DNA of 64,000 nucleotides from Chloroflexota bacterium (GTDB taxonomy: Bacteria; Chloroflexota; Anaerolineae; Promineifilales; Promineifilaceae). The stretch's first letter is position 1, and each line of letters starts with the position of its first letter. Of this stretch, positions 45,174-49,984 are shown piece after piece. The translations under genes were made by a program, and so were the position numbers. The stretch lies in NCBI GenBank assembly GCA_017993775.1, contig JAGOMA010000027.1, forward strand, positions 1 to 64,000, in the 5' to 3' direction. Below the pieces are notes generated by a model, which worked only from the letters and a program-made list of their open reading frames with translations, had not been told where the DNA came from and ran no database searches.

Positions 45174-45782
45174 TCAGTTGGATATAGCCGGCAGCAGGCG
45201 GTCAGACTGCCACCGTTCGTAAGCAGCGCGGGCATACTGCTCATGGGTGGCATGCCAATTGGTGACGGCATCAATGGGCCAATAACGCAAATCTATTCCT
45301 TCATGAGATAGGGTTAATTCGCCGCCTACCGCATCGCACCAATGGACCACGGCAATCATGGTGTGCGGTCCATTGCGCCCACCGGGCACGCGCGTGAAGA
45401 CGCCGACCAACTGCCGGACCACCACGTCTAACCCTGTTTCCTCGCGGACCTCGCGCACGGCCGTTTCGGCCGGTTTTTCATTGGGTTCCACCCAGCCGCA
45501 GGGCAAACACCAGCCACTGCCATCCACCCGATCCATGAGCAGGATTTCGCCCTGGTCGTTAAAGATGGCCGCATCGGCCCCCACTTTAGGCGTGATATAC
45601 CCCAGTTCTTGCAAGAATCGCCGCCGGATTTCTTCGTCTGAAGTATCCAGAAGCTCGGCGTATGTCCGGGTAGATAGGCTCAGGAGCCGTTCGTACCGCT
45701 CGCGGTCGTAGACGCCGGTGGTATAGTGCAAACCGTTGCGAGCGATGGTTTGGATTTCGTCGAGCAGGGCCAAGATGTCCAT
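45174..45782 (-). CDS. Nudix hydrolase with N-terminal Nudix-associated domain
   Basis: A 202-residue protein. The N-terminal ~65 residues match the small NUDIX_N helper domain ([18 protein letters not shown]...). The Nudix box is [23 protein letters not shown] with the REVREE core intact. It follows the pattern of ADP-ribose or nucleoside-diphosphate-sugar hydrolases. AGGAG precedes ATG 45782. Adjacent to the phosphoribosyltransferase gene, it may act in nucleotide salvage or sanitation. Confidence 0.92.
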
Positions 45783-46149
45783 AAATTTCTCCTGTTAGCA
45801 ACCGTCTAATCATTACGGGCGCAGATTGGACCAATCTAAAAACGGGAAGTTATTCCCAGGCGGTTCCCTGGGTTGGAAAAGTGGAGCCGTCTCATTGGGG
45901 CAGCCGCCGTTGGTAAAGATGATCGAGGGTTTGGACGGCAAGCCGCCGGTATAAGATTTGGGCAGCACGAGCATGTTTTTTAATTGGGTAACGGCCGTTT
46001 CCAATTTCCCCTCTACTAGAAACACATCCGCCAGATTTTGTCGCCAAACGGCCGTTGTAACCCTGATTAACCGCCAAATTATCGGCATCAACAAGGCGGA
46101 CAGCTCCAGCGCAGGTCTGTGAAACCAGGCTACCCTAAGGAATGTGAAT

Positions 46150-46284
46150 CAGCACTTCTCAATTTAACCAGAAATGTGTCATGCTGAGGTCCTCCGAAGA
46201 CTCCGCTCAGCATGACAGTTCAGCGTAAATTGCAAAGAAATTACCTTGGTCACACGAATGCCTGATCTAAATTGAGAATTACTG
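46150..46284. mobile_element. Candidate MITE with terminal inverted repeats and target duplication
   Basis: The left end starts CAGCACTTCTCAATTTA; the right end reads CAGTAATTCTCAATTTA on the other strand (15 of 17). Inside is a 12-bp perfect palindrome, TGTCATGCTGAG (46177-46188) and CTCAGCATGACA (46206-46217). AATGTGAAT at 46141-46149 is repeated as AATGTGAAC at 46285-46293 (8 of 9), as expected for a target duplication. The element is 135 bp and has no transposase, so it must be mobilised in trans. The inner palindrome type GTCATGCTGAG is a known style of bacterial intergenic repeat. Confidence 0.7.
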
Positions 46285-46312
46285 AATGTGAACAAAACAA
46301 CTTGCCGAACTG

Positions 46313-46362
46313 AGATTGGAGATTAGAGACTGGTTCAATCGCCAGTCTCTCGTCTCCAATCT
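46313..46362. repeat. Near-perfect 21-bp inverted repeat, GATTGGAGA family
   Basis: AGATTGGAGATTAGAGACTGG (46313-46333; 21 bases with a two-base interior mismatch) is mirrored at 46342-46362 around TTCAATCG. It shares text with the repeats at 6.86 and 27.9-28.0 kb. It directly follows the MITE candidate. Confidence 0.75.
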
Positions 46363-46735: not shown

Positions 46736-49700
46736 ATGCGCTTCCTGAATATAAAAACAATGACGCGATCCCATCAACTCCTGCTAAGCAGCTTTGCCTA
46801 TGGCGCCGGCCTGCTGATAGGAAATGTCTTTAGTTTTTTCCTGTTCGACCAAATTCCCGCCAACTGGTTTTTGTACGGGAACCCGGCAGCCCGGCTGATT
46901 GTCGGCGTTTTGCTGGCCTTTTTTGTGTCCGGTTTGGGTGGTTTGTTGGGCGGCGCAGTTGGCGGCTGGACGCTTCCCCCACTGGGGCAAGGGAAAGATC
47001 GCCGGGGCAACGCCTGGCGCAGCGGCGTAACCTTTGGCGTTGGTTATGGCCTGCTGCTTTTTCCCGTCATTTTGATTGTTTCTCTGCTGTCTTATTATGA
47101 AGTTGTTTACACGCCGGTTTTTGTGTTTGGGCTGCTTTTTGGCGTAATTGGCCTCATTTTCGGGAGCATCATGGGAGCTTCTTTGGGCCTGTGGACAGTG
47201 GGGCGTCATTTCCGACCCATCACAGGCTGGAGCGCGTCTGGGTTTGGCCTGGGCGGCATCTTTTTGGGCGCGACAATCTGGTATTTTGTTTTTAGCTTAG
47301 AGCAGGGTCTGGTTTCATTTGGACCCTACGGCTGGCTGCTGGCAGGTCTATTTTTGTTCGCTGGCTTGGGCGGGCTTGGGCTGGCAGTTGCTTACCAACG
47401 CCTGGAAATGCAGGTGGACACCGTGTTGGCCCCGGTGCGGGCGCTGACGCAGCAGGGTTGGCGGCGGCGGTGGACTATAGCAGCGGTGGTTTTGCTGCTG
47501 TTGGCGGTTCTTTTCCGGCCGTTGGTCTCGGCATTGGGCGATGTGTTAACCCCCATTGATGCCGGCCTATCTGCCGTGCTGGAATTGCCCACGACGGGGA
47601 CTCGCTGGCTGGATACCGTGACTGTAACGGCCGTTTCCCCTCAATCACCCCCTGCCCTGGCCGCCAACTCCCATGGTCAACTTGTCCTGGCCTGGGTGCA
47701 AAACGATACGCTTTGGCTGCAAGAAGGTCAATGGCTGCCCCAAGAAGGTCAGTGGCTGCCCGCCAACCGGCAGATTGCCTGGCAGCCTGCCATAACCGTA
47801 GCGACCGGTTCTCTGGCTGACCCGGCGGTGGCCCTGGCAGAAAACGGCCGTTCCTACCTCGCCTGGGTCGCCAATGACGCCATCGCCGCCAGCCAATGTC
47901 TGGACGGCGGCTGCACCGCGCCAACCCCCATTTCTGCGCCAAATTCGTGCGCCAGGTCGCCCGAACCGGGCAACCGCCAGCCCACATTGGCCGTGAAAGA
48001 TGCTACTGTCCTCCTGGTCTGGGCCAATCAGGCGGGCAACCTGCCTTATGCCACCTGGTCAACCACTTCGGCGACGCCTACAACGGCTGCCGGTTGCGCG
48101 CCAGGAGCCGCCGCGCCGCAGTTAAGCGCCGCTTTCGATCTGGTGTTTGAAACCGGAACCGGGGCTGTTGGATTGTCACGGTTTGATGGCCTGAATTGGG
48201 CGGCGGTGGAGGAAGTGGGCAACGGCCGTTTCCCAGCCCTGGCTGCGGCGGCCAACGACCAACCCCTCGTCGCTTTCTGTACCGATCAGGGTCTTGTCTA
48301 CCAGGCAAATGAAGCGGCAGAGCTGATTGACACCGGTCCCTGCACCGGTCGCCCGGCGCTGGGCCTCGACGACCAGGGCCATATCCACGCGGTCTGGTTT
48401 AGCCCCGAAATAAAAAACACCAACAACGCCATCCGTCCTGCCAGCCTGTTGGTGGAAAGCGTAAAAACGGCCGTCGGCTGGACAGCCCCGGCCATTATCG
48501 GGCACAGTCTTCCCCAGGCGCAGCCAGCGCTGGCCACCGCGCCTGACGGCAGCCTCCATCTGGCCTGGGCCGGCGAAGCGGGCTTGCAAGCCGCAAGCTA
48601 TCTGGCATACACCTGCGACACGGCGGATCTGTCTCGCCTGGGGCGGGTCTTGTATGATCTGGCCCGGCAGGAAACATATACGCCGCCCGCCGATCCGGTG
48701 CCGTTCTGCCACAACCGGTATGATCAGCTGCTCATCACGCCCAATCCCAAACCAGCGTACGGCTTACCCGAATCCCCAACGCCCAACGGCGCTTTCGATG
48801 TCATGGCCGATCTGATCCGGACTGCGCAGTATGAGGTGTTGTTCACCACAATGTGGTACGGCGCGCCGAGCGGCGGCGACAGTCCGGGCAAGGTTATTGC
48901 TGCGGCGGTGGCCGATTTGTACCACAATTTGCAGGCGCACCCGGAACAGTACCCGCGCGGCCTCACGGTGCGCATCATGCTGGGCAACCCGCCAGAATTG
49001 GCGCTGGGCGAAACATCTGGCCAGCTCTGGACGCTCCTGGACGATCTGCGCCAGGCAGGTATCGATAGAATGGTTGATGAGAAACTGGGCTGGCGGCTGG
49101 AAGTGGCCGATTTTGAAGGCAATCTGCCGCACAGTCATGTAAAGGCGATGGTGATTGATGGAAAAACGGCCGTTACCGTCGGTTACAACATGACAGCGGA
49201 TCACTTCCCCGCCGACCACCCATCTGGCACAGGCGGCGGCCGGTTTGACCTGGGGCTGCAAATGACCGGGCCGGTCGCCCAGCCCACCTTACGGATGTTC
49301 GACGATATGTGGCAGGGGGCCGACGGCCGTTCTTGCCTGTTTCTCAACCCGCCATTAGGCTTACCCTGGCAACTGACCTGCTTCGATTACACAGTTACGG
49401 CCGATCATGTGCCCGAAGTCGTCAAGTTTTATCAGGCAGACGGCGACAGCGCCGCTTTCTCCATGTACCGCTCCCAAGAATATGACCTGGCAGACAAACA
49501 GACAGCGGCCGTTATCGCCGCAGCCCAGGAGAGGGTGGACATTGTCCACGTCATGTTTTCCCTGGACATGATCTGTAACCTTAACGTTTTATTCAACATT
49601 TGCAGCGTCGACGAAGCGCCGATATATAAAGAAGCCTTGATACAGGCAGTACAAAACGGCGCTCATTTGCGGATTCTGGTAAAACCCAGCCCGTTTGAAG

Positions 49701-49984
49701 GGATTGAAAATTTTGTGGCGTTAGAGGCGTTTATGGTACGCTTACAAGAATTGGGTCTGGCAGATCAGGTAGAAGTCCGTTTTTATAGCGGGCCGATGCA
49801 TCCCAAAGCCACGCTCATTGACGACGAACTGCTCATTATGGGCAGCCAAAACTTGCACTACAGCGCTTTCAACAAAACGTGGGGTTTAACTGAACACAGC
49901 ATTGGCACGGACGATGCCCAGGTGATAGCCGATTTTAGGCAAGTTTTTGAGGTAGAATGGGCAGCCGGGCGAAGCTGGCCATAA
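46736..49984 (+). CDS. Membrane-anchored phospholipase D-like protein with N-terminal multi-TM domain
   Basis: A 1082-residue fusion. Residues ~10-290 hold six or more membrane helices. The middle part (~290-660) is Trp/Ala-rich with repeated LAWVQNDTLW, LAWVANDAIA and LVWANQAGNL strands, resembling beta-propeller blades (a propeller-type exported domain). The C-terminal ~390 residues carry two phospholipase D HKD motifs: SHVKAMVIDG with His801 and Lys803, and HPKATLIDDELLIMGSQN with His1022 and Lys1024. PLD enzymes hydrolyse or transfer phosphodiesters of lipids or nucleic acids. The arrangement suggests an extracellular lipid-active enzyme, such as cardiolipin-synthase-like, but the substrate is unknown. 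Contains six ACGGCCGT. Confidence 0.85.
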   Translation: MRFLNIKTMTRSHQLLLSSFAYGAGLLIGNVFSFFLFDQIPANWFLYGNPAARLIVGVLLAFFVSGLGGLLGGAVGGWTLPPLGQGKDRRGNAWRSGVTFGVGYGLLLFPVILIVSLLSYYEVVYTPVFVFGLLFGVIGLIFGSIMGASLGLWTVGRHFRPITGWSASGFGLGGIFLGATIWYFVFSLEQGLVSFGPYGWLLAGLFLFAGLGGLGLAVAYQRLEMQVDTVLAPVRALTQQGWRRRWTIAAVVLLLLAVLFRPLVSALGDVLTPIDAGLSAVLELPTTGTRWLDTVTVTAVSPQSPPALAANSHGQLVLAWVQNDTLWLQEGQWLPQEGQWLPANRQIAWQPAITVATGSLADPAVALAENGRSYLAWVANDAIAASQCLDGGCTAPTPISAPNSCARSPEPGNRQPTLAVKDATVLLVWANQAGNLPYATWSTTSATPTTAAGCAPGAAAPQLSAAFDLVFETGTGAVGLSRFDGLNWAAVEEVGNGRFPALAAAANDQPLVAFCTDQGLVYQANEAAELIDTGPCTGRPALGLDDQGHIHAVWFSPEIKNTNNAIRPASLLVESVKTAVGWTAPAIIGHSLPQAQPALATAPDGSLHLAWAGEAGLQAASYLAYTCDTADLSRLGRVLYDLARQETYTPPADPVPFCHNRYDQLLITPNPKPAYGLPESPTPNGAFDVMADLIRTAQYEVLFTTMWYGAPSGGDSPGKVIAAAVADLYHNLQAHPEQYPRGLTVRIMLGNPPELALGETSGQLWTLLDDLRQAGIDRMVDEKLGWRLEVADFEGNLPHSHVKAMVIDGKTAVTVGYNMTADHFPADHPSGTGGGRFDLGLQMTGPVAQPTLRMFDDMWQGADGRSCLFLNPPLGLPWQLTCFDYTVTADHVPEVVKFYQADGDSAAFSMYRSQEYDLADKQTAAVIAAAQERVDIVHVMFSLDMICNLNVLFNICSVDEAPIYKEALIQAVQNGAHLRILVKPSPFEGIENFVALEAFMVRLQELGLADQVEVRFYSGPMHPKATLIDDELLIMGSQNLHYSAFNKTWGLTEHSIGTDDAQVIADFRQVFEVEWAAGRSWP

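Follow-up and report, generated by a model that had tools for sequence, protein, structure and literature searches.

The intergenic region between the divergently transcribed genes of a NUDIX hydrolase and a PLD-like protein (Table 1) contains a short element that is not overlapped by any ORF of at least 60 aa. It lies in a stretch of 64,000 nucleotides, which was analyzed as a whole and is referred to here as the window. The 17-bp terminal inverted repeats (TIRs), the inner 12-bp palindrome and the flanking direct repeats listed in a preliminary description of this DNA were all recovered: the TIRs are identical at 15 of 17 positions (89% over 18 bp, if one base is added), the arms of the palindrome match perfectly and the direct repeats agree at 8 of 9 positions. 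The TIR pattern, with up to three mismatches allowed, has two matches in the window, i.e., both ends of the element (shuffle mean of 0.12). TIRs matching at 15/17, spaced by 90–300 bp and bordered by 8/9 direct repeats, occur together only once in the window, as determined by a window scan run without shuffles. The structure exceeds what chance would produce, the strongest argument being the 25 further two-ended copies in the genome, the majority of which have target duplications of their own.

Table 1. Coordinates of the element, its parts and the neighboring genes within the window.
Feature	Position	Strand	Remarks
NUDIX hydrolase gene	45174-45782	-	
Left target-site duplication, aatgtgaat (AATGTGAAT)	46141..46149	.	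8/9 vs. right flank
MITE, 135 bp	46150..46284	+	derived by shortening from a 176-218 bp family
Left terminal inverted repeat, CAGCACTTCTCAATTTA	46150..46166	+	
Left arm of inner hairpin, TGTCATGCTGAG	46177..46188	+	
CTCCGAAG, junction of a 41-bp internal deletion	46192..46199	+	alignment with 176-bp copy L002
Right arm of inner hairpin, CTCAGCATGACA	46206..46217	-	
Right terminal inverted repeat, CAGTAATTCTCAATTTA (as read on the - strand)	46268..46284	-	
Right target-site duplication, aatgtgaac (AATGTGAAC)	46285..46293	.	
PLD-like protein gene	46736-49984	+	

Compared with the 176-bp form L002, the hairpin of the window copy is shorter by 41 bp, which were lost between two CTCCGAAG direct repeats; on this alignment, the window copy derives from a longer form by internal deletion. 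The adjoining stretch, 46313-46362, comprises a 21-bp inverted repeat (AGATTGGAGATTAGAGACTGG/CCAGTCTCTCGTCTCCAATCT, 90%). It is matched at 76–87% in three genomes of the same bacterial family (G041, G042 and G010) and seems to be part of a dispersed repeat.

The window's own genome (G000) is a 6.0-Mb draft of 113 contigs with 93% completeness. A search of this genome yielded 107 matching stretches, which, when assembled by their ends, gave 26 two-ended elements at unrelated sites, a lower bound that includes the window copy and 25 others. At least two further, more diverged TIR pairs are present (C18:117804-117992 and C107:136895-137102). The elements range from 108 to 282 bp, most of them measuring 176–218 bp, and fall into three subfamilies: the main one, a 185-bp type with a different hairpin loop, and a type with TIRs ending in ...TTTG (L034, L049 and L056). 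Most copies differ from one another in sequence, their positions are mostly intergenic and their flanks are different in every case. Three 185-bp copies (L017, L019 and L022) are identical, yet occupy different sites with a perfect target-site duplication (TSD) at each, which points to recent movement. One 282-bp copy (L013, G000:C98:181931-182212) carries an internal tandem duplication of ~82 bp and has kept a perfect 9-bp target duplication.

We determined that the duplication has a fixed length. The mean identity of the two flanks is 0.84 at 9 bp, as opposed to 0.21–0.36 at every other length from 3 to 15 bp, and, position by position, it drops to background right outside the 9 bp. The TSD is perfect (9/9) in 14 of the 26 copies and matches at 8/9 in eight, including the window copy, so that 22 of 26 reach at least 8/9; in one further copy, the flanks match at 8/8 when read in an 8-bp register, and a TSD is absent from three (L003, L014 and L050). 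For L021 and L022, the flanks were joined and used as queries against a genome of the same genus (G001), which contains both sites without an insertion (95% and 89% identity, respectively). The L021 site has a clean junction in which GGTATGCGC is present once, while the L022 site has small indels and no MITE, which shows insertion for these two sister copies. No ortholog of the intergenic flanks of the window copy was found among the other 51 family genomes, and an empty site for this copy is therefore not demonstrable in the relatives searched. The preliminary description had interpreted the element as a 135-bp non-autonomous MITE, to be given up if no second copy and no empty site in relatives existed. 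Since further copies and empty sites were found, both grounds for giving it up fall away, and the interpretation agrees with an element that is short (under about 600 bp), devoid of a transposase gene, multicopy, and bounded by TIRs and a 9-bp TSD.

To what extent the ends of the MITE are shared can be seen from the pattern CAGYAATTCTCAATTT (one mismatch allowed), which is present in 26 of the 52 family genomes and almost absent with the reversed control. The genome G014 contains 326 occurrences of the TIR pattern; a transposase of the IS group described below was not detected in it. In G040, several contigs break about 110–130 bp inside elements with a CAGYAATTCTCAATTT-type end, which would be typical of an IS present in several copies. 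The regions around the TIRs in G040, G022 and G041 held just contig ends or further short elements. The reading frame at the G040 contig ends, i.e., terminal transposase sequence, led to full-length ISs in two other genomes of the family, G008 and G007 (the latter being Anaerolineae bacterium ACE_NR_CHLO5), and thus the full IS with the same ends that the preliminary description had suggested to look for does exist. From G007, a member of the same family, the window can be placed, presumably, in the class Anaerolineae of the Chloroflexota. Each is 1407 bp long and contains one gene of 444 aa, the two transposases being 76% identical. The IS of G008 has identical 16-bp ends, CAGCAATTCTCAATTT, and no TSD, and in that of G007 the ends are near-identical and the 9-bp duplication, ctaatgaaa, is perfect (loci L135 and L187 represent this one insertion and were counted once). 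Outside the terminal 19–23 bp, the MITE is dissimilar to every full IS found. G014 also has a short element of another kind (L099, C92, 1510-1725), which combines CAGCAATTCTCAATTT ends with an interior made of another GC-rich repeat and is flanked by gttctcatt as a perfect 9-bp duplication.

As for the transposase, a plasmid-encoded homolog with 44% identity is annotated as 'ISNCY family transposase' (WP_013335080.1). The motifs LDG, GDxL-type and RWKIENE are conserved across ten diverse relatives and would fit a DDE triad. Some relatives gave weak matches to the Pfam DDE_Tnp_1 and the NCBIfam IS4 and ISAs1 models; the two same-family proteins (G007 and G008) had no match in NCBIfam, and PDB searches returned no relative of the transposase. 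Hundreds of relatives from many phyla were retrieved when named genomes were scanned. The automatic TIR/TSD search in other phyla gave convincing boundaries in a subset of loci, the remainder being noise that was left out. Similar CAG-starting ends (among them CAGCGATTCTAAATTT, CAGCAATTCTAATTTT and CAGCAATTCTCATTTT) with perfect 9-bp TSDs were found in Aminicenantes, Alphaproteobacteria, Sulfurospirillum, Methylotuvimicrobium, Microvirga and Rhodothermales. The MITE has ends of the form CAG[CT]AATTCTCAATTT expected of this ISNCY type, the left end of the window copy having one extra mismatch, and the 9-bp target duplication is common to the MITE copies, the G007 IS and other relatives. The window element has no DDE transposase of its own and, lacking coding capacity, is a non-autonomous derivative rather than an IS itself. 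Within this bacterial family, we also noted transposases of the same kind that form a second group (L145, L147 and L148) and have CAGCAATTCGAAATAT ends, meaning that at least two end types coexist.

It had been proposed that the MITE must be moved by an IS located elsewhere in the same genome. This is supported, with one qualification: full ISs with the same 16-bp ends and 9-bp TSDs occur in same-family genomes, but no such transposase was detected in the G000 assembly, either with a single protein or with a ten-sequence profile, and no IS-length TIR pair was found there. The congener G001 retains a decayed IS, which starts with CAGCAATTCTCAATTTAGAGCATGG and has a broken transposase frame behind it, indicating that the genus once had a helper IS. 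Over 22 bp, the right end of L014, L015 and L022 matches the end of this remnant at 95% identity. In G000, the helper has presumably been lost or is missing from the draft assembly.

The interior of the MITE has a distribution of its own. The 12-mer TGTCATGCTGAG occurs 54 times in G000 (zero for the reversed control), and the hairpin it forms is also found solitary, without the MITE TIRs, as single copies on contigs C9, C12, C35 and C50. In a further element, at C35:49832, the match to the MITE extends past the hairpin, and no TIRs are recognizable. The interior of the 185-bp subtype is identical over 91–93 bp to the solitary C50 hairpin, with identity stopping at the hairpin edges, while the other subtypes have a different loop within nearly the same arms. 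The simplest reading of these comparisons is that a hairpin module may have entered the MITE by capture or conversion. We suggest only tentatively, and with more doubt than conviction, that the inner hairpin acts as a separate module, mobile or convertible, which the MITE can gain and lose by exchange; if so, this would be a two-layer element, one repeat riding inside another. On contig C67 of the same genome, three ~105-bp hairpin units without MITE ends lie head to tail (L058, 1501-1810; about 175736-176045 of the contig).

Taken together, the element is very probably a MITE that retains only the ends recognized by an ISNCY-type DDE transposase, i.e., CAG-starting TIRs of 16–17 bp, associated with a 9-bp TSD. 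The solitary and tandem hairpins could instead suggest a mere REP-like intergenic palindrome, spread by a REP-associated route, with the outer repeats being incidental. We regard this as highly improbable, as the 9-bp duplications sit exactly outside the outer TIRs and not outside the hairpin, the outer ends match those of the full ISs, and the empty sites lack the entire outer element. The position of the duplication refutes a REP-like nature for the element as a whole; the MITE interior may have such an origin. Nor do we give much credence to the copies being immobile relics, either propagated by segmental duplication or maintained by selection as exapted regulatory or terminator hairpins. 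Such a scenario would be in line with the mostly intergenic positions, the dissimilarity of most copies and the folding of the window element, which is stronger than that of shuffled sequences (z = -3.3). However, the intergenic region has no match in Rfam, the flanks differ at each copy, most copies have a 9-bp duplication of their own, and identical copies reside at three different sites. Segmental duplication and selection were thus rejected as the mode of spread on account of the differing flanks, the separate TSDs and the identical copies.

In the transposon reading that we favor, a full 1.4-kb IS would supply the transposase in trans; the enzyme would bind both TIRs of the MITE, excise or copy the element and insert it into a target whose strands are cut 9 bp apart, and host repair would then generate the 9-bp duplication. 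We infer that an enzyme of this IS group moved the MITE, with the strand-transfer chemistry presumably being as proposed here.

The family is a new one of an already known kind, namely an ordinary miniature transposon. A literature search for the TIR sequence gave no match, and among the papers co-mentioning MITEs and Chloroflexi none bears a title on this subject. A MITE family, together with its likely helper IS, identified by its ends, duplication length and transposase, is thereby defined for a Chloroflexota family in which the ends occur up to 326 times per genome. The group lends itself to studying the spread of non-autonomous elements where helpers are scarce or lacking, and its definition helps prevent misannotation of these repeats.

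The ISNCY category is little characterized; the CAG ends and 9-bp TSD of the MITE fit what we take to be its ISMae2-type group. The likeness to ISs of this category with CAG ends consists in the terminal CAGCAATTCTCAATTT and the 9-bp target duplication. The full elements found here are 1.4 kb long and encode one 444-aa DDE transposase, whereas the window element lacks a transposase and has just about 16–23 terminal bases in common with them. A comparable case is the 187-nt MITE of Microcystis aeruginosa, which has ISL3-like ends, GGCTCTTCG, and 8-nt repeats (PMC11448079). Both are short, multicopy, non-coding elements with TIRs and direct repeats, for which the IS family was matched by the ends, yet the Microcystis MITE differs in its GGCTCTTCG ends and 8-nt repeats (ISL3) from the window MITE with its CAG ends and 9-bp repeats.
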